Source: a virus
Direction: 5' to 3' (one strand)
Length of the DNA stretch: 22,982 nt
Virus record (IMG/VR): IMGVR_UViG_3300033182_001210
Coordinates: 1-22,982 of that record
Positions 2,803-22,982 of the stretch are shown here, piece by piece. Below the pieces are notes generated by a model. It saw only the letters and a list, made by a program, of their open reading frames with translations. It was not told the origin of the DNA and ran no database searches. The position numbers were made by a program, and so were the translations under genes. Each line of letters starts with the position of its first letter. Position 1 is the stretch's first letter.

Positions 2803-3045
2803 TTAGGAGGTGTAGCGCGGCTCCTTGCCGAGGTTCACCAGTTCCTGATTGACGAGGTGGTTGTACTCCTCCTCGTACTTGTGCTGGAGCACGAGGTGCG
2901 CGCGGCGGCGGGCCTCGTTGCGGAGACGGGTCTTCCGCTTCTGCTCCTCGCGGCGCTCTGCCTTCTGCTCGGGGGTGAGGACGCTCGGGCGACCACGCTT
3001 GATCGCACCGGGCGAGTTCATCAGCTTCTCGTATTCTGTTGCCAT
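2803..3045 (-). CDS. Small basic Arg/Lys-rich protein
   Basis: This 80-aa protein is dominated by charged residues. A RGRPS element (residues 18-22), which resembles an AT-hook core, precedes a long basic helix (about residues 25-50, rich in EQKAERREEQKRKTRLR) and a more acidic C-terminal helix. This suggests nucleic-acid binding, but no family is recognised. The start ATG at 3045 has a strong Shine-Dalgarno (AAGGAG) seven bases upstream. A promoter-like pair lies at 3099-3127, and a hairpin terminator follows the stop at 2750-2777, so the gene may be a single-gene transcript. It diverges from the rightward early-type operon across a 252-bp control region. Confidence 0.75.
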   Translation of the reverse strand: MATEYEKLMNSPGAIKRGRPSVLTPEQKAERREEQKRKTRLRNEARRRAHLVLQHKYEEEYNHLVNQELVNLGKEPRYTS

Positions 3046-6336: not shown

Positions 6337-8096
6337 GCCGGTTTGCCTCTCCCGAAGTAGATCGCTTCCTGTCGCTGCTCGACGGCGTACGCCAAAACGG
6401 GCAGAACTGGTCTGCCAGATGTCCATGCAGGAACGACGACTCAAACCCGTCCCTGTCGATCGGGCAAGGACGAGACGGCCGCGTCCTCGTCACCTGCCAC
6501 CGCGGAACACCATGCTCAGTAGAGCAAATTTGTGACTCGATGGGCCTAGAGCTCGGCGATCTGTATCCGGTCGACGACGACTGGGAACCCGTCGAACGCA
6601 ACGACCCGAAAGTGACCCCACAAGGCGCATCATCAGTTTCCGTAAAGGCCAAAAAACAGAAGCTCGACCTCAAAGACACCTACGACTACACCGACACAGA
6701 CGGCAACCTGCTGTTCCAAAAACTGCGATTTGTGGACGAGAACGGCAAAAAAACATTCCGTCAACGTCGGCCGGTCGGCAACCGCTGGGAATACAACCTC
6801 GACGGCGTCACGCAAGTCTTATACCACCTGCCAGAAGTCGTCGAAGCCGTACGTGAAGGCAAAACCGTTGTCGTCGTGGAAGGCGAAAAAGATGTTGAGA
6901 CGCTGCGCGCCATGGGGCGGGTCGCAACAACCATGCCCGGCGGAGCCGGAAAGTGGCGTCCGGAACACACCGAGGCGCTACGCGGGGGCAACATCGTTGT
7001 TGTCGCAGACAACGATGAGCCCGGCAAAGCGCACGCCATCCAAGTCCGCGACGCCCTGACCGAGGCCGGCTGCTCCGTCCGAATGATGATCCCAGACGGG
7101 GTAAAAGACATCACCGATCTGATCGAAGCCGGTCGAGGACTCAAAGACCTACGCGACTTCGATGGCGAACTTCAGGAACCCGAACTGACAGACCCGATCC
7201 AGCCGGCGCTCAACAAGATCGAAAACCTGCTCGCACGCGACGACATACCTCTGTCGTCGAAGATCACCCGCGCGACGATGATCCTCGACGAACTTCGGCC
7301 ACAGACCACAGCCCGACCAGCCGGCCGTCTTGTCAAATGGTCCGACTTCGTCGACGAAGCTGTCGACGATTCATACGACTGGGTGATACCCGGCCTTCTA
7401 GAACGCGGCGAGCGCGTCATAATCGTGGCCAGTGAGGGCATAGGGAAAACAATGCTTGGCCGTCAGGTAGCGCTCTGCACCGCTTCCGGCATACACCCGT
7501 TCACCTTCGAACGCATGGAGCCCATCCGCACCCTGATGGTCGACTTGGAGAACCCGCAGCGGATCATCCGCAGAACGTCGATCGACATTCAGAAGAAGGC
7601 TCAGATGTTCGGTTTTTGCGACGATCCGCAGGCCCATTTGTTCATCAAACCTGACGGCCTCGACCTTCTGCAGTCCGGGGATCGCGTGCTGTTGGAGAAC
7701 GCGATCGAGCAGACAAAACCCGACCTCCTGCTGCTGGGTCCGGTGTACAAGTCGTTCGTTGATCCGGGCGGACGTACCAGTGAAGCAATTGCTATTGAGG
7801 TCGCTAAATATTTTGACTCATTACGAGAGTGGTTTAATTGCGCCATGTGGTTTGAGCACCACGCACCCTTAGGGTCTACAATGTCTTCAAGGGATTTGCG
7901 ACCTTTCGGCTCCGCTGTGTGGTCAAGGTGGCCCGAGTTCGGGCTCAGCCTCCAACCAGACCCGACGGCAACCACAGGATATGTTTACGACGTAAACCAC
8001 TTCCGCGGCGCTCGAGACAGGCGACGATTCCCTACAAAAATGATGCGCGGGCGAAGATTCCCATTCGAAGTCCTCGAATTCATGGCGGTCGACTAA
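6333..8096 (+). CDS. Bifunctional DNA primase/helicase (Zn finger, TOPRIM, RecA/RepA-like ATPase)
   Basis: This 587-aa protein joins a primase half to an ATPase half. Cys30, Cys32, Cys55 and Cys61 form a primase-type zinc site. The TOPRIM domain has VVVEGEKD (E183, acidic site 1), MPGG at 201-204 and VVADNDEPG (D226 and D228 region) for metal binding. The C-terminal half has a Walker A, ASEGIGKT (366-373), a Walker B-like strand RTLMVDLEN (399-407) and a further strand DLLLLGP. This is the RepA/AAA_25 type of hexameric helicase. It would make primers and unwind the fork. The start is GTG, overlapping the preceding stop (GTGA). The last base of its TAA begins the next ATG (TAATG). The enzyme family is clear; the exact split of activities is inferred. 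Confidence 0.9.
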   Translation: MSRFASPEVDRFLSLLDGVRQNGQNWSARCPCRNDDSNPSLSIGQGRDGRVLVTCHRGTPCSVEQICDSMGLELGDLYPVDDDWEPVERNDPKVTPQGASSVSVKAKKQKLDLKDTYDYTDTDGNLLFQKLRFVDENGKKTFRQRRPVGNRWEYNLDGVTQVLYHLPEVVEAVREGKTVVVVEGEKDVETLRAMGRVATTMPGGAGKWRPEHTEALRGGNIVVVADNDEPGKAHAIQVRDALTEAGCSVRMMIPDGVKDITDLIEAGRGLKDLRDFDGELQEPELTDPIQPALNKIENLLARDDIPLSSKITRATMILDELRPQTTARPAGRLVKWSDFVDEAVDDSYDWVIPGLLERGERVIIVASEGIGKTMLGRQVALCTASGIHPFTFERMEPIRTLMVDLENPQRIIRRTSIDIQKKAQMFGFCDDPQAHLFIKPDGLDLLQSGDRVLLENAIEQTKPDLLLLGPVYKSFVDPGGRTSEAIAIEVAKYFDSLREWFNCAMWFEHHAPLGSTMSSRDLRPFGSAVWSRWPEFGLSLQPDPTATTGYVYDVNHFRGARDRRRFPTKMMRGRRFPFEVLEFMAVD

Positions 8097-14413: not shown

Positions 14414-14715
14414 AACCAAAACTCCTATCCACCGCAGCAAACGGCGACCAGTTGTGGGTCAACCGCAAACACCCGAACGGCAAAATGTCCGGCTTCATTC
14501 TACAAATCAACAAAATCAAACGACCCGTTGACGACGTCGGCATGGCCCTTCAGTCAGACCGCTGGCCGTCAGGCGAAAACATCGACAAATACCTGCAGCG
14601 CCGCGAACCAAAAAAACCGAAGCTCATCAACTACCCTGACTTCGACCGACCGATGAACAGAATGCGGAAACCAGACAATGACGACACTCCACGTCCAAGA
14701 CAACGCCCTACCTGA
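14410..14715 (+). CDS. Small basic protein coupled to the giant ART gene
   Basis: This 101-aa product starts in the ATGA overlap with the giant ART gene. It opens with MKPKLLSTAANGDQLWVNRK, contains a segment that could form a small beta domain (GKMSGFILQINKIKRPVDDVG), and ends in a Pro/Arg-rich tail (PDFDRPMNRMRKPDNDD). No family is recognised and there is no signal peptide. Strict coupling to a toxin-like ART suggests a partner such as a chaperone or an immunity factor, but position alone does not show this. It overlaps the following oxygenase gene by 38 bases. Confidence 0.65.
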   Translation: MKPKLLSTAANGDQLWVNRKHPNGKMSGFILQINKIKRPVDDVGMALQSDRWPSGENIDKYLQRREPKKPKLINYPDFDRPMNRMRKPDNDDTPRPRQRPT

Positions 14716-15361
14716 ACCACTGCTACGCAGAGTCGCCAAAGACCCAAACTTTTTCCCAGCCGACATGTCGCTTCACGACAACATCGGCGAATACCTCAAC
14801 AGCTACCACGATCAAGAATGCGACTGCTTCGCCCCCTACATGTTTTGGGACGGATGGCTCAACTCGCCCGCTGACACGCTCCGCAAACAGGTCATCCAAG
14901 TCTTATGGTCGCAGCCCGGACTGCTGCCGTTCCCTATCGAAGAAGTTGCCGGGTTCGAATACTGGACCCGCACCTTCGGAGTCGGCCAATACCTCGGCGT
15001 TCACTGCGACGAAGACACGTTTCAGTACGCCAAGGACAGGTACTACCGTGGGCCCGCGATCGGCTGCGTCTGGTACGGCACCAGCGAATCGACCGGCGGG
15101 TTCCTCGAACTGCACGCCACCACCATCCTCGAAGGGAAAGATTCCCTTGAACGAGAGCAACTCGATGCGCTAATGTCGGCACCCGAGGAACGTGAACGGA
15201 TCATGTACCGGCCTAATCGGCTGGTCGTGTTCGATGCCGGTCACCGGCTTCACGAGACAACGAAAACTCTTACCGGCAAGCGTCAGGTGATGGTGGTCAA
15301 CGTGTGGCACCGCGACAATCCGCCGAGCGCAATCGAAACAGGCGAATTTTTTTACGAATGA
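14678..15361 (+). CDS. 2-oxoglutarate/Fe(II)-dependent oxygenase
   Basis: The 227-aa product has the prolyl-4-hydroxylase-like iron site. His109-x-Asp111 lies in LGVHCDEDT after a YWTRTFGVGQYL strand, and the distal His (His192, or His189) lies in FDAGHRLHETTKTL. Arg202 in KRQVMVVNVW is positioned to bind 2-oxoglutarate. The core strand GPAIGCVWYG and turn STGGFLELHAT match the usual GGxL segment. Such enzymes hydroxylate protein side chains, nucleobases or small molecules with O2 and 2-oxoglutarate; the substrate cannot be read from sequence. A start at ATG 14678, with CGGAAA eight bases upstream, overlaps the preceding gene. Its own stop overlaps the next start (ATGA). Confidence 0.85.
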   Translation: MTTLHVQDNALPEPLLRRVAKDPNFFPADMSLHDNIGEYLNSYHDQECDCFAPYMFWDGWLNSPADTLRKQVIQVLWSQPGLLPFPIEEVAGFEYWTRTFGVGQYLGVHCDEDTFQYAKDRYYRGPAIGCVWYGTSESTGGFLELHATTILEGKDSLEREQLDALMSAPEERERIMYRPNRLVVFDAGHRLHETTKTLTGKRQVMVVNVWHRDNPPSAIETGEFFYE

Positions 15362-15909
15362 CTTTTGTCTCCGGACCAATAACTGAACTTCACAGAGATC
15401 GAGCGCAGAGACGAGCCGCTGAGTATCCGGTCCTAAAAGGCTCCCACCGTGGCAAAACCGCCAATGAGATCGGTGCGCTCGGTGAAGTTATCGCGGAAAG
15501 CTGGCTGGCGAGGAACGGGGTCAGGTTCACCTCTGTTCGCACCACAAGAACCGACCTGATCCTGTCAAACGGAAAAACGCTCGAGATCAAAACGAAAGAC
15601 CGCACCGTCGCACCAAAACCAGAGTACGAAGCGAGTATTCCGCTGTACAACCACGATCACCAGCAGCCTGACTACTACCTGTTCGTTTCCCTAGAACGCA
15701 AACGTGGCCCATCTTCAACGCTTGAAGATTTTCACACCGCGCACATTGTCGGGGCATCCTCCGTCCGCAAAATGCATCAACACGGGAAAGTGTGGAAAGC
15801 CGACGAAACCGACCCGGACAACGGCACCACCTTCTGGACCGACTGCCTGAACATAAAAATAGAAAATTTGGTGGAGCCCGCTACCGCGTTGGTACACTGG
15901 GCGCCATGA
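15358..15909 (+). CDS. PD-(D/E)XK-type nuclease-like protein
   Basis: The ATG at 15358 lies in an ATGA overlap with the oxygenase gene; a longer frame from 15304 sits inside that gene and is rejected. The 183-aa product shows a restriction-endonuclease-like core. The first helix is ALGEVIAESWLARNG (Glu43), then comes TRTDLILSNGKTLEIKTKDR, in which Asp66 and Glu76-Ile-Lys78 form the D...ExK site. Later strands are DYYLFVSL and THAHIVG-like segments. The core organisation is that of small nucleases such as phage recombination or Holliday-junction-type enzymes and restriction-like enzymes. It is likely to cut DNA, possibly in recombination or host DNA breakdown. No DNA-specificity domain is visible. 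It is in the same overlapping operon as the oxygenase and the sigma-like gene. Confidence 0.7.
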   Translation: MTFVSGPITELHRDRAQRRAAEYPVLKGSHRGKTANEIGALGEVIAESWLARNGVRFTSVRTTRTDLILSNGKTLEIKTKDRTVAPKPEYEASIPLYNHDHQQPDYYLFVSLERKRGPSSTLEDFHTAHIVGASSVRKMHQHGKVWKADETDPDNGTTFWTDCLNIKIENLVEPATALVHWAP

Positions 15910-16358
15910 ATGCTGAACTAATACTACAAATTCAAAATAAGCTCGAAGGTTACGTGTACAACCATGGCGGTGACCGTTACGACGACGCTGCACAAACCAT
16001 CAGCATTTGCCTACAGCGCGGGTACCACGAACTGCCGGAACTCGAGTTCAAAAGGGTCGCATTTCGCATACTGAAAAACCTCCGAGTCAACCGTTATCGT
16101 CAACTCGACTTACAGGATCGATACTTCCCGGTGATCGCCAGACCAGAACAGACAGAAGACCTCCACCGAGAAATGTTTTTCGAGGACATGATTTCACAAC
16201 TCGACCCGACCGAGCAGAAAATTTTGACGATGAACATGGTTGACGGCTGGAACATGAACGACGTAGCCAAACAGATGGGGATCACCCCCAGCTTGGCACG
16301 CAAACGCAAAATGGTCGCTATCAAAAAGTTGCGCACCACACTTGCCCCGACTTCATAA
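15906..16358 (+). CDS. Sigma-70-like (ECF-type) factor
   Basis: The ATG at 15906 overlaps the nuclease stop (ATGA); an upstream extension to 15792 lies inside that gene. The 150-aa product resembles a small sigma factor. A region-2-like helix pair is DDAAQTISICLQRG and RVAFRILKNLRVNRYRQ (residues 24-74). A linker with EDLHREMFFEDM follows. The C-terminus is a region-4 HTH, SQLDPTEQKILTMNMVDGWN then MNDVAKQMGITPSLARKRKM. The region-2 part is short for an ECF factor (usually about 180 aa in total), so it may not recognise a -10 box on its own. It could direct late phage transcription or bind core RNA polymerase as a modifier. A weak promoter-like pair (TTGGTG 15868, TACACT 15893, 19-bp spacing) lies just upstream. 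Confidence 0.75.
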   Translation: MNAELILQIQNKLEGYVYNHGGDRYDDAAQTISICLQRGYHELPELEFKRVAFRILKNLRVNRYRQLDLQDRYFPVIARPEQTEDLHREMFFEDMISQLDPTEQKILTMNMVDGWNMNDVAKQMGITPSLARKRKMVAIKKLRTTLAPTS

Positions 16359-16380
16359 ACACTTGCGATAGTTTGACCAC

Positions 16381-17394
16381 GTGCGTCGAGAAAAACCAGA
16401 GTACGACTTCACACGTCACCGGCCAACAATCGGCAACACGTTTCTTCCGTGGCCAGAACGAACAGGGGCAGGGCGAGAGTTCAACCGTGGCCTCATGAGA
16501 GACGAAAACTCCGGCTTTTTTTATAGTTACGGTCCAGAATGGCACCACAACATTGTCGGTGACAGCAACGACGGTTTTTTGGAAAACTGCTATTACCGGG
16601 TCAACTCGGACGGCATGCATTGGGATGAATATGTATCCGAACCAGATCTTCTGGCTTTGGGATGCTCCATTACTGCTGGTGTCGGCATCCCCTACGAGTA
16701 CACGTGGCCGAACATTTACCGTCACGTCACCGGGGAGTCTGTAAATGCTGTGGCGCGGCCGGGGGCCTCACTTCGCACAATGGTGAAGTCCGCTTTACAT
16801 CACATCAAACATTACGGGCTTCCCAAAAAAATCTTTATTTTGATTATGGACGCTATGCGCTACACGTTTTTAGAACCCGCGAGCTTGAAGCACACGCACT
16901 ACCCAAGGACTCGAGTTCTTTTATATGACCGCGAATCAGAAGGATACTCCGAGGGAGGAGGTGCCAACGCGTTTGTTTATGACGATGGACGCGGTCTTCC
17001 GATCGTTCCTTCCGCTCATTTTCTGGCAGAAGAAAATTTGACAGCGCTCGAGCACCTTGGATATGTATGCGACATTATGAATATCGATTTGCGCCTCAGT
17101 TTTGACGGTAGAGAATTCACGGCACAGTTCCAATCAATGGGATGGGACGTCGTACCGAGACACACCCCCGAAAACGAGTTTCTTCCCCAAGGCAAAGATC
17201 ATGAACTGTTTTGGGATTACGGGTGGGACACAACCCCAAACGCTGCCTATGCCGCTCACCCCGGACTCCAAGCACACCTCGAGCTAACATCTAGTTTTCT
17301 CGGACGGCAACTCGGGCCAGACGAATGGAAAGACGTCACACCGTGGGCGCGACATAAATTTCGTCACGACATTCCACACCCGCAAAAACAATGA
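16381..17394 (+). CDS. SGNH-hydrolase-like protein, copy 1 of 3
   Basis: This 337-aa product starts at GTG 16381; the start is supported by alignment with the third copy (YDxT...R near the N-terminus). The nucleophile block is PDLLALGCSITAGVGIPYEY, where GCS replaces the classical GDS, followed by TWPNIYRHVTGESVNAVARP and PKKIFILIMD. SGNH hydrolases are esterases or deacetylases that act on glycans, lipids or cell-wall polymers. The C-terminal block reads NAAYAAHPGLQAH: His-Pro-Gly is kept but the Asp usually two or three residues before the His is missing (Ala and Tyr there). It may therefore have low activity or a different acid. There is no signal peptide. It is the first of three tandem paralogues and overlaps the next start (ATGA). 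Confidence 0.75.
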   Translation: MRREKPEYDFTRHRPTIGNTFLPWPERTGAGREFNRGLMRDENSGFFYSYGPEWHHNIVGDSNDGFLENCYYRVNSDGMHWDEYVSEPDLLALGCSITAGVGIPYEYTWPNIYRHVTGESVNAVARPGASLRTMVKSALHHIKHYGLPKKIFILIMDAMRYTFLEPASLKHTHYPRTRVLLYDRESEGYSEGGGANAFVYDDGRGLPIVPSAHFLAEENLTALEHLGYVCDIMNIDLRLSFDGREFTAQFQSMGWDVVPRHTPENEFLPQGKDHELFWDYGWDTTPNAAYAAHPGLQAHLELTSSFLGRQLGPDEWKDVTPWARHKFRHDIPHPQKQ

Positions 17395-18398
17395 ACGTCG
17401 ATCCCCTCACAGAGCTCTGGAGAATCCGAGAAAAAGACCCGTCCCGACTCTGCCAGACAGGATGGCCAGTTTCCGAAGCGCTCAAGCACAACCCTGCCGA
17501 ATACGACGAAGAACTCGGAATTCGCTGGTCTGACGGGACCGGCTATTTTTACACAAAACCAATGGAAAGGGTGGCTCACCAGTTCAACTCTCTAGGCTTC
17601 CACGGGCCAGAGTTTGTCGATCAGCCCGACATAGTGACCCTCGGATGCTCTATGACAAACGGCATCGGGCTTCCTCACAACTTCACGTGGCCACACATCA
17701 TCAGCCACATCACCGGCCAGACGGTGAATAACATTTCTGAGCACGGACAGGGGTGCGTCAACCAGTTTCTGTCCCTCCTTGGACACAACGCAGCACACGG
17801 CAAACCGAAAAAAATCTTCTGGCTTGTCACACCATTGGACCGTTTTTATTTCGCGTTGCCCGCGGCGGGCACCACCACTTTCCAGTACAGCGCCGACGCA
17901 CACGCATACATCGATCACGCAAAGCCAATCACATTTAAATCTATCGACGGAACTCCAGCGTTCATACCAATCAACGTTGGCATCCATCAAAACCTCATAG
18001 CAATCGACCAAACCATCTTTTACTGCGAAGGCGAAAAAATAGATCTCCGTTTAAACTCGTGGTCGCGACCGACTCTCAACGCTCTCGTTAAGGACTACCA
18101 CCACATAGGAATCGTCGGCCACAAATTTGGATGGGTTCAAGATGGTTCAAGAGAAGCAAAAGCTGAACAGCAATATTGCGGATGCGGACTGAAGCCACAA
18201 AACTCGTATCAGTCCGATTTCTGGAACGCCGCGAAAGACACAGACGACGGACGCGACTCCACCACCGAACATCCCGGACTACACTCACAACTACACTTCG
18301 CAGAACTGTTCCTCGAACGCGAAATCACCACCAGCGAGATAGCAGACATCACCCCGTTTTGGGCAGGAACCGAAATTGAAAACAAAATCAATGCGTGA
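17391..18398 (+). CDS. SGNH-hydrolase-like protein, copy 2 of 3 (most diverged)
   Basis: The 335-aa product starts in the ATGA of copy 1. The nucleophile block is DIVTLGCSMTNGIGLPHNFT, followed by WPHIISHITGQTVNNISEHG and PKKIFWLVTPLDRFYF. The C-terminal block is DSTTEHPGLHSQ, again HPG without Asp at the usual place (Thr at -2 and -3, an Asp only at -5). It shares the N-terminal WS.GTGY and NSLG-type strand with its neighbours but is less like them than copies 1 and 3 are to each other. The GCGCGL-like segment (QQYCGCGLKPQ) near residue 265 is particular to this copy. It is likely a subunit or a substrate-specific relative, acting on the host surface or as part of a virion structure. Neither role is shown by the sequence. 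Confidence 0.72.
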   Translation: MNVDPLTELWRIREKDPSRLCQTGWPVSEALKHNPAEYDEELGIRWSDGTGYFYTKPMERVAHQFNSLGFHGPEFVDQPDIVTLGCSMTNGIGLPHNFTWPHIISHITGQTVNNISEHGQGCVNQFLSLLGHNAAHGKPKKIFWLVTPLDRFYFALPAAGTTTFQYSADAHAYIDHAKPITFKSIDGTPAFIPINVGIHQNLIAIDQTIFYCEGEKIDLRLNSWSRPTLNALVKDYHHIGIVGHKFGWVQDGSREAKAEQQYCGCGLKPQNSYQSDFWNAAKDTDDGRDSTTEHPGLHSQLHFAELFLEREITTSEIADITPFWAGTEIENKINA

Positions 18399-19425
18399 CG
18401 AAAATTATTTTAATCCCGGCTACGACCTAACCGTACTCAGGCTGAACCCCGCAGAACAGTTTTACAGCTGGCCAGAATCACCCAAACACTGGAAACAGTT
18501 AGATTGCCTTCTTGAAACTGACGAAACAACGGGCATCACCTACAGCCGTGGAGTGGAATGGCACCAGAACATCAGCCCACACAAAAACGGTGCTCTGCCA
18601 AACTGCTACTACCGGGTGAACTCTGATAATGCCCACTGGTACGAATACGAACACAACCCTGACGTTGTAGCACTCGGATGCTCGCTCACAGCAGGCATGG
18701 GCATACCAATCGAATACACGTGGCCGTCCATCTACCGTCAGATCACCGGCGAAACAGTAAACAACATTGGCCGTCCCGGCAACCCGCTCGCCCGCTCGGC
18801 CTACTCGCTGTTTCGCCACGTAAAGAACTACGGCCCACCGAAAAAAATTTTTGTTTTACTAGGTGACCCTTACCGTTACTGGCATCAGGGTCCGCTGCCG
18901 CGTCCGCTGCCGCACGAGGGTCCGGGCTTACTGCTGAACGATCGTATCGTTCAGTTCAACCATGATACGCTGACATATGTCGGGCATGGTGGGAAACCTT
19001 GGAACTTTCGGGATTCTTTGGGTCGTGAAACGATGTTGTCACCCGATATTTGTGTTGGTGAAAATTTGCGTGCGTTCGAACACGTACTGTATTTCGCTGA
19101 AGCGTTCGATATTGACGTGAAATTGCAGGTCATCCAGCCGATAGTCGAGTCGCATTTTGAACAAATCGGATATCCAGTTGTGCGCTCCACCGCAAACCAA
19201 GAACCAGTTCCTGAAACGAAAGATCAGGAGCTGTTCTGGCGGTACGGTTTCGACTTTGTGGACGGCGTCCACCACGACGCCCATCCCGGGTTAGTGGAAC
19301 ACCTGAAATGGGTATCAGGATTCCTCGGGCGTCCAGTCACCCAAAACGAACTGAAAACGATCACCTGTTGGGCAAGCCACCTTTTCGACCATGACGCGCC
19401 GAAATGGTCAGGGAAAGAACGCTAA
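18391..19425 (+). CDS. SGNH-hydrolase-like protein, copy 3 of 3 (canonical triad)
   Basis: The ATG at 18391 overlaps copy 2 by eight bases and gives 344 aa; a TTG at 18376 is an alternative. The nucleophile block is DVVALGCSLTAGMGIPIEYT and the glycine block is TVNNIGRPGN. The oxyanion-region strand is PKKIFVLLGDPYRYW. The C-terminal block is VHHDAHPGLVEH, which keeps the Asp two residues before the His, so this copy has the complete SGNH catalytic set. It is closest to copy 1 (shared CYYRVNSD, GENLxAFEH/EENLxALEH, and a KDxELFWxYG run). Codons in about 18880-19180 use more G/T in third position than the flanks, and a 12-bp tandem repeat lies at 18890-18913, suggesting a replaced segment. A hydrolase of acyl or acetyl esters is likely, substrate unknown. 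Confidence 0.78.
   Translation: MRDENYFNPGYDLTVLRLNPAEQFYSWPESPKHWKQLDCLLETDETTGITYSRGVEWHQNISPHKNGALPNCYYRVNSDNAHWYEYEHNPDVVALGCSLTAGMGIPIEYTWPSIYRQITGETVNNIGRPGNPLARSAYSLFRHVKNYGPPKKIFVLLGDPYRYWHQGPLPRPLPHEGPGLLLNDRIVQFNHDTLTYVGHGGKPWNFRDSLGRETMLSPDICVGENLRAFEHVLYFAEAFDIDVKLQVIQPIVESHFEQIGYPVVRSTANQEPVPETKDQELFWRYGFDFVDGVHHDAHPGLVEHLKWVSGFLGRPVTQNELKTITCWASHLFDHDAPKWSGKER
18890..18913. repeat. 12-bp tandem direct repeat in the third SGNH gene
   Basis: gtccgctgccgc occurs twice back to back (18890-18901 and 18902-18913) and encodes a Pro/Leu-rich GPLPRPLPHEG loop absent from the other two copies. It lies at the start of the locally GT-biased stretch. Confidence 0.7.
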
Positions 19426-19434
19426 GATCCGGCC

Positions 19435-19668
19435 ATGACCTTCGACGAATGGCTCCAAATCGGTATCGACAACAAATGGTGCGGCCCCGCGGTCTGCTCC
19501 ACCCACGACGGCATCCCCATGTCCCCCGACGAAGACGACGAATGGGCTGACGGCCTCGACCCCTGCCACCATGTCATCCGTCTCTACGAAAACGAAAACA
19601 TCGCCGACACGATCAACCACTCCTTCACCCCCTACAAGTGGCGGACGTCATGGAAACTGCCGACATGA
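19435..19668 (+). CDS. Small acidic protein with CGPAVCSTHDG motif
   Basis: This 77-aa product begins MTFDEWLQIGIDNKWCGPAV, then CSTHDGIPMSPDEDDEW and DPCHHVIRLY. Three Cys and several His could bind metal, but the order does not match a named zinc finger. Short proteins with the opening MTFDEWL..GI..GWCG...C.THDG are, to my recollection, widespread in actinophages with no assigned function. The start ATG is nine bases after the SGNH copy 3 stop, with no strong Shine-Dalgarno. The stop overlaps the following gene start (ATGA at 19665). Confidence 0.75.
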   Translation: MTFDEWLQIGIDNKWCGPAVCSTHDGIPMSPDEDDEWADGLDPCHHVIRLYENENIADTINHSFTPYKWRTSWKLPT

Positions 19669-20165
19669 TGCGCGTCAACATCGGCCCCGACATTTGGGCC
19701 ATCCAAACCCTCACCGAAGCCCGATGCGACCAGATTGGACGCGGCATCACCCACGACCCCAACTGGAAACGCAAAAATCGGCATCCGCTCGACCACGGTG
19801 CGGGCGTCAACGTCCGCGACCTCACCGACACGTCGCTCGGCAACATCATCAACGACCACGCCCGACAACTCTCCGAACTCGTCGAAGAGCTCTACAACAC
19901 CAACATTCGAGTCAGATCCACCTACATACAAAAATGGGACCACAAAGGTGACGAAACCGTCGACATCCCCGGCGGAGGCAAAGGATGGATCACCGTCACC
20001 TGCCTCGAAAACACCATCGCACCATCCGGCGGCCTCCGATTCCCCGACCTCGGCATCACCTACGAAGGAATCAAAGGACGCACCCTGTTCTACCCCAACA
20101 CCTACCCGCGCAGCGTCACACCCGTATACCGCAGCCTCACCACAATCCGCACCAGACACCACTAA
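19665..20165 (+). CDS. Degenerate 2OG-oxygenase-fold protein lacking iron ligands
   Basis: The ATG at 19665 (GGAAA eight bases upstream, overlapping the previous stop) gives 166 aa; GTG 19638 and ATG 19650 are alternatives. The C-terminal part, PSGGLRFPDLGITYEGIKGR then TLFYPNTYPRSVTPVYRSL, lines up with the GGELVFPELG...HGVEPV...SR core of the convergent oxygenase at 20204-20794. At the iron positions the HSD of the neighbour is KWD here, the distal His is Arg, and the 2OG-binding Arg is Leu. By known chemistry this copy should not bind Fe(II) or 2OG in the usual way. It may be a structural partner or decoy, or have a different activity. It converges on the intact oxygenase, and the 18-bp repeat at 20164 overlaps its stop. 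Confidence 0.7.
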   Translation: MMRVNIGPDIWAIQTLTEARCDQIGRGITHDPNWKRKNRHPLDHGAGVNVRDLTDTSLGNIINDHARQLSELVEELYNTNIRVRSTYIQKWDHKGDETVDIPGGGKGWITVTCLENTIAPSGGLRFPDLGITYEGIKGRTLFYPNTYPRSVTPVYRSLTTIRTRHH

Positions 20166-20181
20166 CAGATAAATCTAAACA
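20164..20181. repeat. 18-bp direct repeat, left copy
   Basis: aacagataaatctaaaca occurs here and again, identically, at 20819-20836. This copy covers the stop codon of the degenerate oxygenase gene and lies 23 bp beyond the stop of the leftward oxygenase. Its centre AGAT-AA-ATCT is an inverted repeat. Confidence 0.8.
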
Positions 20182-20203
20182 AACCGAGAAACCCGACACA
20201 AAA

Positions 20204-20794
20204 CTACAACAACCCCCAAACCGGCGACGCATCACAACAATCCACGTCCCACCCCGACGGCAACAACGAAACCGCACGAGCCAACACCCGCGCCCTCGAC
20301 ACAAAAAACACCGCCGACAAACGCGACCCCACCACAGGCTCAACCCCATGCAACACCGCCGAAGGAAACACCACACCCCACCCAGCCCGCGGCACCACCG
20401 GCCCAACACCCAACTCAGGAAACACCAACTCCCCACCACCACCCGACTCCAAAAACAACACCACCGTAAAATCCGCCCAACAATGCCACGGCGCACCCGA
20501 CACCGTCAACACACCACCCTCATCAAACACATCCGAATGCGGCACCGCCCACTCACCAACCCGCCACTCACGCACCGAACCCCGCCACACCACCACAGGC
20601 TCCCCACACACCCCCACACACACATCACGAACCAACCCCCACACACCACCCAAAAAATCCCCCACACCCACACCAACACGCTCCACAACCCACTCAGGAT
20701 CACCAACCCCCAACGGATCCAACAACACCGACCCCGACCGCACACCAGCAGCCACACCAACCGGATCCACCGACCACAAAAACTCCGAAACCAC
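20204..20794 (-). CDS. 2-oxoglutarate/Fe(II)-dependent oxygenase (prolyl-hydroxylase-like)
   Basis: This 196-aa product, read leftward, starts at GTG 20794; an in-frame TAG lies four codons upstream, so no longer start exists. Its core has all ligands. HSD supplies His and Asp (residues about 86-88), then come FTVVLFLESGGGGELVFPEL and VVFPSAVLHGVEPV with the distal His. SRLSAVFFV follows with the 2OG-binding Arg. This is a typical P4H-like dioxygenase. The gene is the only leftward one in the right half of the window and is very rich in G and T in the coding strand. It sits between two copies of an 18-bp direct repeat, suggesting independent acquisition. Its degenerate relative ends 38 bp away on the opposite strand. 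The substrate is unknown. Confidence 0.78.
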   Translation of the reverse strand: MVSEFLWSVDPVGVAAGVRSGSVLLDPLGVGDPEWVVERVGVGVGDFLGGVWGLVRDVCVGVCGEPVVVWRGSVREWRVGEWAVPHSDVFDEGGVLTVSGAPWHCWADFTVVLFLESGGGGELVFPELGVGPVVPRAGWGVVFPSAVLHGVEPVVGSRLSAVFFVSRARVLARAVSLLPSGWDVDCCDASPVWGLL

Positions 20795-20818
20795 ACCACC
20801 AAACTACACCACACCCCC

Positions 20819-20836
20819 AACAGATAAATCTAAACA
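20819..20836. repeat. 18-bp direct repeat, right copy
   Basis: This is identical to the copy at 20164-20181 and in the same orientation. It lies 25-42 bp upstream of the GTG of the leftward oxygenase, a position where it could also be part of its promoter or an operator. Confidence 0.8.
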
Positions 20837-20921
20837 CCACACCGCGACCCAAAAAAACCAAAACACCACCCCCCAGCGGGGCGGCGTCGCGATTGTCAGC
20901 TTCGGGGCTTCTGATGCCGTT

Positions 20922-20941
20922 TGCGCGAGCATGCGCGAGCA
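20922..20941. repeat. 10-bp tandem repeat in divergent intergenic region
   Basis: TGCGCGAGCA is repeated head to tail (20922-20931, 20932-20941). It lies in the 224-bp region between the leftward oxygenase and the rightward metallophosphoesterase, just before a promoter-like pair and close to the place where strand composition reverses. It could be a regulator or initiator binding site. Confidence 0.55.
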
Positions 20942-20957
20942 GCGTTTCGGGGTGGGG

Positions 20958-20986
20958 TTGTGGTTTTGTTCGGGTGGCCGTATGCT
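20958..20986 (+). promoter_or_regulatory. Promoter-like pair for the metallophosphoesterase gene
   Basis: TTGTGG (20958-20963) and TATGCT (20981-20986) are 17 bp apart, 33 bp before the chosen ATG at 21019. This spacing supports the short start rather than the ORF opening at 20893. Confidence 0.5.
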
Positions 20987-21018
20987 GGCCGGATGTTTGT
21001 ACCTATGTTGGATCGGGG

Positions 21019-21879
21019 ATGTCGATGAGGGTTGTTGTCGCAGGTGATGTGCATGGGAATGATGCTCATCTTCGCATGTTGCTTGACGTTTGTGTCGTTG
21101 AGGGTGCTCCTTTCCTTGTTGTGTGTGGTGACTTTGGGTTTTGGCCTCATGTTGATTGGGGTCGTGACTTCATTGAGGTCGCACAGTTGGAGGCTCATTC
21201 TCGTGATGTGTGTGTGATCTGGATCGATGGGAATCATGACAATCATGATGTGTTGGAGTCGATGCTTCAGCCGTACAGAGAGATGGAGTGTGGTCCGGGG
21301 TTCAACGGATTGGTTCCGGTTGGGGACGTTGGCTCGTTGATGTGGTGTCCTCGTGGATGGACGTTCGAGTTGGATGAGTTGACGTGCATGGGATTTGGAG
21401 GGGGCATCAGTGTTGATAGGGAGCATCGTCGTGAGGGTGAGTCGTGGTGGTCGGGTGAGGCGATCACGCGCGAGCAGGTTGACGGTGTGCGGGCGGTCAT
21501 CGCGCCTGCGGGCGTGCCGTATACGCGGGCGGGCTTCATTGATGTGGTGTTCTCGCATGAGGCGCCGTTGGCGAACGGAATGTTTGCGCCTGTGAAGGGC
21601 GGGGTCGATGATTTGTCGTACAAGGATGTGATCGCTGAGTCGTTGGATCAGCGTCGTTTGATCTCGGAGTTGGTTGATGTGGTGAAGCCTGAGCGTGTGT
21701 TCTGTGGGCATCATCATGTGCGACGTACGTTCACTCGGAGGTATGAGGGGGGCGCGGAGTTGGTGTTTCCTGAGTGCCGAGTTGATGTGTTGGGTCATGA
21801 CCATTCGGGTGCGGACTCGTACACGATCCTTGAGTGCGGCGGAGAGGGGAGCGCTGTCCCTGCTCTCGTAGGGGTTTGA
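21019..21879 (+). CDS. Calcineurin-like metallophosphoesterase
   Basis: This 286-aa product has the complete two-metal signature: GDVHG (Asp10, His12), GDFGFW (Asp38), DGNHDNH (Asn72, His73), SHEAP (His180) and GHHH (230-233). Such enzymes hydrolyse phosphodiesters or phosphomonoesters with Mn or Fe. Phage members may act on RNA or DNA ends, on nucleotides, or on phosphoproteins. The frame is open from 20893, but ATG 21019 (MSMRVVVAGDVHG) has the family N-terminus and a GGATCGGGG ribosome-site-like run, and the promoter boxes lie just before it. The coding strand is notably G/T-rich, unlike the A/C-rich rightward genes at 14.4-20.1 kb, which suggests a different history or replication strand. 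Confidence 0.88.
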   Translation: MSMRVVVAGDVHGNDAHLRMLLDVCVVEGAPFLVVCGDFGFWPHVDWGRDFIEVAQLEAHSRDVCVIWIDGNHDNHDVLESMLQPYREMECGPGFNGLVPVGDVGSLMWCPRGWTFELDELTCMGFGGGISVDREHRREGESWWSGEAITREQVDGVRAVIAPAGVPYTRAGFIDVVFSHEAPLANGMFAPVKGGVDDLSYKDVIAESLDQRRLISELVDVVKPERVFCGHHHVRRTFTRRYEGGAELVFPECRVDVLGHDHSGADSYTILECGGEGSAVPALVGV

Positions 21880-21889
21880 GAGAAATTTT
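21863..21889 (+). terminator. Weak terminator candidate after the metallophosphoesterase gene
   Basis: CTCTC (21863-21867) and GAGAG (21878-21882) can pair across a 10-nt loop, followed by AAATTTT. The stem is short and overlaps the stop codon, so function is doubtful. Confidence 0.25.
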
Positions 21890-21985: not shown

Positions 21986-22666
21986 ATGGCGAAACGAGAA
22001 ATCAGCACAGGTGAGGCGGCCAAGATCCTTGGCATCAGCTTCGCGCGTATCCATCAGCTTGCCGCGTCCGGCAAGATTGAGGGCACGTACCACAAGAAGA
22101 ACAACGGCAAGCGTGGCAGGTGGACGCTTTCACGCAAGAGCGTGATGGAGCGTCTCGAAGCGCAGCAGGCCGCGGAAGCCAGCATCAAGGCTGGCGAGCA
22201 CAAGCCCATTGCCCCTTCGGGTTACATGACGACCCGTCAGGTCGCTGAGCACTTCGGTGTTGCGACCGAGACCGTCAGGTCATGGGTGCGTCGCGGACAG
22301 CTCCAGACGGCAGGCACGATGCCTCAGCGATTCGGTCGTGACGCGACAGTGTTCGCTAACGAGGTCGTCGACGCGTTCGTGCCGCCTTCGGTTTCGAACC
22401 CGAACTGGCGTGCCGCGTTCATCCCTAACAAGGGCATCGTCAAGGACGGTAAGACGTACAGCCTTGACGACGTCGAGCAGGGCAACGTCGAGCAGGGCAA
22501 CGGCGAGCAGGCCGACATTGTGGCCGAGCAGCAGTCCGAGATCGAGCGTCTCGAGGCTCAGATCACCGAACTGCGCGAGCAGATGACGGCCACGAACCAG
22601 TCCAACATGGACCTGCTGTCATCGAAGATCGATCAGATCGTCGAAGTCATCACTCAGCCCTCCTGA
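21986..22666 (+). CDS. Double winged-helix (MerR/excisionase-like) protein with coiled-coil tail
   Basis: This 226-aa protein has two helix-turn-helix units. The first, STGEAAKILGISFARIHQLA (residues 7-26) with wing GTYHKKNNGKRGRW, is MerR/excisionase-like. The second, MTTRQVAEHFGVATETVRSW (residues 81-100), has a GRDATVFANEVVDAF end. A hinge with two copies of VEQGN follows, then a coiled coil at about 180-222 (EQQSEIERLEAQITELREQM) for oligomerisation. It should bind DNA with two sites per chain, as a regulator or DNA-organising protein. The ATG at 21986 follows GAAAGAAGA at moderate spacing. Its codon choice (AAG, GGC, CGT) is unlike the GT-rich gene upstream. It precedes the structured RNA and tRNA. 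Confidence 0.8.
   Translation: MAKREISTGEAAKILGISFARIHQLAASGKIEGTYHKKNNGKRGRWTLSRKSVMERLEAQQAAEASIKAGEHKPIAPSGYMTTRQVAEHFGVATETVRSWVRRGQLQTAGTMPQRFGRDATVFANEVVDAFVPPSVSNPNWRAAFIPNKGIVKDGKTYSLDDVEQGNVEQGNGEQADIVAEQQSEIERLEAQITELREQMTATNQSNMDLLSSKIDQIVEVITQPS
22472..22512 (+). repeat. 15-bp tandem repeat encoding VEQGN
   Basis: gtcgagcagggcaac occurs twice in tandem (22472-22486, 22487-22501) and a partial third copy (ggcgagcagg) follows. It encodes the hinge between the winged-helix domains and the coiled coil, and its length may vary between relatives. Confidence 0.7.
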
Positions 22667-22773: not shown

Positions 22774-22920
22774 ACCCTGCCCCAAATGCGAGGGCAGGGG
22801 GTGAGCCTCCCTGACACATTATCGTGGAGAGATGTGTCGGAGAGACAGGCGGATCACCTCCCGGGAATGCCCCCTTCGGCTGGATGTCCTTCTGTTCCGG
22901 AGGGGGTGTTCTCGTGTCTG

Positions 22921-22982
22921 GCCCCTCTAACTCAACTGGCAGAGTAACGGACTTTTAATCCGCAGGTTGAGGGTTCGAGTCC
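22921..22982 (+). tRNA. tRNA-Lys(UUU), 3' end cut by the window
   Basis: The acceptor 5' strand is GCCCCTC, followed by TA. The D arm is ACTC-AACTGGCA-GAGT. The anticodon arm has loop CTTTTAA with anticodon TTT at 22954-22956 and stem ACGGA/TCCGC (first pair A-C unpaired). The variable loop is AGGTT, then the T arm GAGGG-TTCGAGT-CC. The T-stem 3' side, acceptor 3' strand and any CCA lie beyond the window. Anticodon UUU reads AAA and AAG, and AAA is commonly used in the phage genes of the A-rich part. It is probably the first of a tRNA cluster. Confidence 0.92.

Follow-up and report, generated by a model that had tools for sequence, protein, structure and literature searches.

A short oriented repeat lies beside an origin-like composition switch in a probable actinophage lineage

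The window analysed here (W) is a whole stretch of 22,982 bp of virus DNA, and it is compared with relative contigs and loci, which carry L-numbers. The locus of interest contains two convergent genes, A and B, followed by a metallophosphoesterase gene. A short motif is present in two copies, the right-hand one close to a point at which the strand composition flips. The features are as follows.

19650–20165 (alternative start 19638), + strand: gene A, convergent with gene B
20164–20181, + strand: motif copy 1, AACAGATAAATCTAAACA, overlapping the stop codon of gene A (20163–20165)
20204–20794, − strand: gene B, a 2OG-Fe(II) oxygenase (phrog_61, E 5e-8)
20795–21024: intergenic region between gene B and the phosphoesterase gene, holding copy 2 and the flip
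20819–20836, + strand: motif copy 2, AACAGATAAATCTAAACA, anchored at the flip, between gene B and the phosphoesterase gene
20844–20857, + strand: GCGACCC and an A7 tract, between copy 2 and the flip; conserved in W and L004 and partly in L008 (alignment)
20869–20881: C6-A-GCGGGG inverted repeat at the composition switch, with the GT minimum at 20875
20922–20941, + strand: tandem 10-mer, TGCGCGAGCA twice, right of the flip; L008 and L024 have CGTGTGTTCG twice there
21025–21879, + strand: metallophosphoesterase gene, adjoining the flip in all four contigs that reach the locus

Between the two motif copies, gene B is the one leftward gene of any size, in agreement with the initial annotation. The same annotation held that its strand is unlike that of all its neighbours. 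This is correct for the immediate neighbours, but 429–2636 and 2803–3045 are also leftward. The L008 homologue of gene B matches 2OG-FeII_Oxy_3 with E 2e-5, slightly under the Pfam cut-off. Gene A matched nothing in Pfam or PHROG; because it shows a weak profile relation to gene B (E about 0.001), it may also encode a 2OG oxygenase-like protein. The phosphoesterase matches PF00149 (E 7e-11, on 20893–21879) and phrog_1649 (E 3.6e-25). General protein-family scans of the W genes turned up no named integrase or recombinase.

Two other parts of the window are described here for completeness. Three tandem paralogues of about 340 aa (16381–17394, 17391–18398 and 18376–19425) have no Pfam match and are SGNH-like by eye only. 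At the edges, 22920–22982 resembles L008 1–60 and W 1–430 resembles L013 1–430, and the ends of the W and L008 contigs coincide to the base. The right end shared by these two contigs falls inside a tRNA-Lys-like sequence. The shared ends are probably an assembly break in conserved sequence, and possibly an attachment site or genome end.

The 18-bp perfect direct repeat described in the initial annotation is confirmed: AACAGATAAATCTAAACA occurs twice, both times on the + strand, 655 bp apart from start to start. That annotation proposed a search for further copies, and within three mismatches on either strand the 22,982-bp record, which is W itself, contains only these two sites. The number of matches expected is 0.01, and two or more were obtained in none of 100 dinucleotide-preserving shuffles. 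If the flanks are included, the match between the copies becomes 26 nt at 92% or about 54 nt at 79.6%. Copy 1 lies about 22 bp past the 3' end of gene B. The palindromic core (AGAT/ATCT) to which the initial annotation drew attention is not kept in the relatives, which have AGATAAATCC, ATATAAATCC and CACAAATC.

In W, both the GC and the AT skew switch direction abruptly at 20,875, and a strand-composition switch is present in all four contigs. In L024 the + strand is A/C-rich again straight after the phosphoesterase gene, and the whole 104.8-kb record has no global skew minimum at the flip; the skew is thus local. The 14-bp core of copy 2 ends 41 bp from the flip. The nearest motif end is 40 bp from the flip in both L004 and L024; in L008, where the copy has diverged, it is about 70 bp away. 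The other copies have the same orientation as the flip-side copy and lie within 5 kb to its left. From its sequence features, the region 20795–21024 looks like an origin-like control region.

The four contigs that reach the locus are W, L004/L003, L008 and L024, and gene B is beside the phosphoesterase gene in three of them. L004/L003 (12,546 bp) is collinear with W 14,687–21,564, with gene B 82% identical; here gene B is followed by a leftward gene C and then by about 3 kb of other genes missing from W at this position. The order in L008 (a 23,708-bp contig) is phosphoesterase, B, C, with gene B 61% identical by alignment. Gene C, found in L004 and L008 and missing in W, is leftward and TauD-like by a weak match. 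The L024 record (104,839 bp) matches 12 of the 25 W proteins tested, and order and strand are conserved from p1 and RNR via the primase to the phosphoesterase, with no homologues of B, A or C detected in locus L024. A further contig, L018, includes gene A and stops short of gene B.

A tblastn comparison of genes B and A with 50,697 phage records gave no match, and a profile search of genome contigs with gene B gave 52 pattern matches and no relatives. Eighty phosphoesterase loci were kept. Skew and repeats were measured in W and 25 of them (L022–L041, L043, L044, L046–L048), and genes A, B and C and the motif were looked for in L024–L101. The W primase is 31–33% identical over its length to those of Arthrobacter phages and a WhiB gene is present, and for these reasons the lineage is probably an actinophage one.

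Two sets of small genes recur among these contigs. A hydrophobic peptide of 23–24 aa ending in Arg-Arg (or Arg-Arg-Pro) is predicted at L004 7155–7229, L018 15086–15157 and L008 4740–4810, after gene A or near a PAPS-reductase-like gene; it is missing in W. Two small genes, gene z and a DUF932 gene lie left of the phosphoesterase gene in L004 (8436–10306), and the same block is found inverted, right of the phosphoesterase gene, in the L024 record (L109 747–2557). The similarity of the small genes and z between L004 and L109 was judged by eye.

The 16-bp core of the W repeat is kept in L004, where CAGATAAATC[CT]AAA has perfect copies at 7216, 10340 and 11834 and a one-mismatch copy at 8072. All four copies are on the + strand and left of the flip, and the first 7.2 kb of L004 contain no copy. 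In the 104,839 bp of the L024 record, AGATAAATCYA has just three exact occurrences (93337, 94408 and 95220), all on the + strand and all at most 2 kb left of the flip. In L018, CAGATAAATTAAAC is found about 60 bp past gene A. The exact motif is absent from L008, which has a pair of its own: an exact 15-mer inside a 54-nt repeat at 74%, with a spacing of 700, one copy before B and one before C. In a four-way alignment, the flip-side copy of L008 lines up with those of W, L004 and L024.

Over the 5 kb to the left of the flip, W, L004 and L024 together have eight occurrences of GATAAATC on the + strand and none on the − strand, against 0.19 and 0.10 expected, and a count of eight was reached in none of 2000 local shuffles. 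The + orientation is partly favoured by composition, as the two expected values differ, but composition does not explain the copy number. The orientation is constant whatever the gene direction, and follows the genome. Thirteen copies were aligned, copy 1 among them, five of which were picked by eye; no second conserved box common to all 13 was found. The motif is immediately upstream of a translation start at L004 7216 and 8072 and at L024 locus 3826 and 4896, and two L024 copies are 5 and 8 bp before rightward ATGs. Copies 1 and 2 of W are not immediately before a translation start.

The scan of L024–L101, allowing at most one mismatch, also found the motif in L036, L037, L041, L043, L045, L047, L092 and L101, besides W, L004 and L024. 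Exact matches to the 20-letter motif pattern in L005 and L006 are in AT-rich DNA with no detectable similarity to W and were taken as chance. In L109 (2560–2650), a promoter-like sequence, TTGACA-17-TACAAT, precedes a 401-aa ORF and its spacer contains CAGATAAATCCCC. This is a one-mismatch match to the 11-letter core, about three of which are expected by chance in the record by a hand estimate.

The flip is accompanied by a very strong bias at third codon positions. The fraction of G or T at these positions (GT3) in gene B is 0.99 in W, 0.99 in L004 and 0.98 in L008, and in gene C it is 0.99 and 0.87. The rightward genes of L024 closest to the flip have values of 0.02 and 0.06. Gene A has a GT3 of 0.14 in W, where it is near the flip, versus 0.31 in L004, at a distance of 4.7 kb from the flip. 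Third-position changes in gene A were counted over 166 aligned codons with L018 as outgroup, excluding sites at which each of the three sequences has a different base and substitutions that stay inside the GT or the AC class. The ratio of GT-to-AC to AC-to-GT changes is 10:4 in W and 0:9 in L004 (Fisher p 0.0016). The DUF932 gene has a value of 0.11 on the + strand in L004 versus 0.52 in L024, where it is located elsewhere. Right of the flip, the phosphoesterase gene has values of 0.72–0.78 in all four contigs.

The bias therefore tracks distance from the flip and not the coding strand, and mostly fades with distance. Some genes are off the smooth gradient, namely two small L004 genes (0.55 and 0.43 on the + strand), L004 gene y (0.44) and the L008 PAPS-reductase-like gene (0.45). 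The GT3 values of the rightward genes of W and L024 lead us to reject coding-strand transcription as the cause of the bias in these genes. Strand-biased damage of exposed DNA is given as a cause of such gradients in mitochondria (PMC3269015). A putative leftward RNA transcript could also be the source of the bias in the left arm. Extreme local asymmetry spans 19400–21880 in W, 10300–12546 in L004, 1137–3853 in L008 and 3800–6750 in L024.

DnaA-dependent origins typically have a composition flip, clustered DnaA boxes, doubled short repeats and an AT-rich element. The present region is similar in having a flip and an AT-rich element, with clustered DnaA-box matches and doubled repeats in two relatives. 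The sequence TT[AG]TCCACA, which we take to be a form of the DnaA box, occurs in exact form within 400 bp of the flip for two of its three occurrences in the L008 record and two of its four in the 104.8-kb L024 record. The L008 and L024 records each contain two copies of CGTGTGTTCG and no more, both of them directly right of the flip. The region, a putative origin, differs from DnaA-dependent origins in that no TT[AG]TCCACA is found near the flip in W (nor in L004) and in that the bias is local. The tandem TGCGCGAGCA of W is weak as a sole sign, because a repeat of at least 9 bp occurs in 5–11% of background windows.

The reading that we prefer, and hold with moderate confidence, is that the repeats are short, oriented control sites, putatively bound by a protein, which are anchored beside an origin-like flip and repeated in nearby gaps. 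It starts from direct observations, namely the positions, orientation and conservation of the motif, the flip, and the gradient of bias. The site would be short, AT-rich and oriented, with the core A[GT]ATAAATC[CT]AA, and would have been kept in intergenic gaps by an actinophage-like lineage. Its right-hand copy would belong to a conserved intergenic region that resembles a replication origin and may act as one. A phage or host protein, either an initiator or a regulator, would recognise the site, and at the flip it may help duplex opening or the start of replication or transcription. Copy 1 and the other outlying copies of the left arm would be extra sites for the same protein. Gene B would then simply lie between two sites; it need not have arrived by means of them, although they might affect it.

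Two genes in W were considered as possible readers of the motif. The sigma-like gene at 15906–16358 (Sigma70_r4_2, E 1.3e-7) has no tblastn match in L008 or L024, and the HTH gene at 21986–22666 has none in the L024 record. Neither is supported, because L024 lacks a match to either and still has the motif.

A possible, though doubtful, alternative is that the motif is a transcription element, either an operator or part of a promoter, serving the leftward genes B and C or associated with rightward starts, and that the bias comes from strong divergent transcription. The local skew and the return to A/C-rich sequence are roughly as compatible with a transcription unit as with an origin. The L008 copies precede B and C respectively, L004 has copies ahead of gene B, of a small leftward gene and of two rightward ones, and the two L024 copies next to rightward ATGs noted above agree with this idea. 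TAnnnT strings, picked out by eye, follow the motif in five leftward contexts. Against it, copy 1 has no downstream gene start on either strand, and the rightward genes of L024 are C/A-rich, which is opposite to the effect of their own transcription. No sigma-70-like −35/−10 pair with a spacing of 16–18 bp was found at the motif in the W, L003 and L008 regions, a search that does not cover weaker or non-sigma-70 promoters. A simple promoter is disfavoured because there is no such pair and no second box shared by the 13 aligned copies, and because the orientation follows the genome and not the gene. As a sole explanation, a simple leftward promoter for B is rejected, given that the L024 motif is among rightward genes and that copy 1 has no start downstream.

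A further suggestion, which we make tentatively and regard as unlikely, is that the motif array marks a replication origin or R-loop-primed origin whose neighbourhood is single-stranded for a long time on one strand, so that third positions within about 1.5 kb reach up to 98–99% G/T on that strand, whichever strand is the coding one. If so, the oriented copies would serve the start and the path of a leftward-moving machinery.

The initial annotation favoured a mobile cassette bounded by the repeats. In the form considered here, the repeats on either side of gene B would be sites of recombination, and modules lying between copies would come and go by exchange between them. We now consider this improbable. 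Repeats flank gene B in both W (655 bp) and L008 (700 bp), and copy 1 joins gene A, which is left of L004 7216, to gene B, which is right of L004 10340, as a direct-repeat deletion would. There is also a precedent: PMC4351075 describes Cluster O mycobacteriophages in which recombination between repeats has removed a segment in some genomes. Those 17-bp repeats are, like the present ones, repeated, often intergenic and from an actinobacteriophage, but they are dyad-symmetric and exceed 30 copies per genome, as compared with the 2–4 asymmetric copies here. Copy 1 coincides with a rearrangement junction at which W lacks gene C and some 3 kb present in L004, and it may mark the join left by a deletion. 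Such a deletion would not have been clean, however, because W lacks the small peptide gene beside A as well as gene C.

Moreover, the repeats do not always bound the same gene. The L004 copies bracket B together with C, with additional copies next to unrelated rightward genes both there and in L024; the motif is present in L024 where no B was detected; and L008 retains B though its repeat has diverged. Gene B also keeps its place beside the phosphoesterase gene in three of the four contigs. It had been proposed to look in relatives for an empty site with a single repeat. None was seen among the four contigs: three keep B, and L024, with no detected B, has several copies. The repeat reported initially is real, and the alternative offered with it, of two recognition sites, fits better than a cassette bounded by repeats.

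Stoperator-like silencing, in which putative asymmetric repressor sites block leftward transcription, is very unlikely. The motif is asymmetric, intergenic, at the ends of leftward units and in a single orientation independent of gene direction, and the stoperators of Cluster A mycobacteriophages are likewise asymmetric and orientation-constrained, as they are described in PMC4351075. Stoperators are oriented with transcription according to the same text, unlike the present motif, which is oriented with the flip. In addition, there are just 2–4 copies per record, and the HTH gene is unmatched in L024, which has the motif. Finally, short two-copy repeats often arise by chance, but a chance repeat is scarcely credible here given the 0.01 matches expected in W, the eight copies against 0.19 in three left arms, and the 16-bp core kept in L004.

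Intergenic repeat families are already known in actinobacteriophages, and the present one differs from them in its sequence, its few copies and its anchoring at a composition switch. A limited literature search found no published account of the motif, and no result named this phage group. The SAS of Cluster K mycobacteriophages, GGGATAGGAGCCC, is placed immediately before gene starts (PMC3203893). Like the present motif it is described there as short, asymmetric, intergenic and nearly always in one orientation, and several copies here are similarly 0–15 bp ahead of a start codon. Unlike the SAS, copies 1 and 2 of W are not at gene starts, and the anchor of copy 2 is the composition flip. The repeats of halovirus HF2 (PMC8707807) resemble ours in being AT-rich, intergenic and conserved in position among relatives, but are 29 and 58 bp long and had their promoter activity tested.

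The mobile-cassette account is thus replaced by a testable one, of a lineage-specific oriented site at an origin-like switch. The associated bias, with 99% G/T at third positions and the reverse for genes on the other strand, is unusually strong. It would allow the asymmetry of an origin or of transcription to be studied from sequence alone, and may merit a study of its own. If the suggestion of an origin with a long-lived single strand is true, strand-specific damage near an origin would be naturally recorded in this phage.
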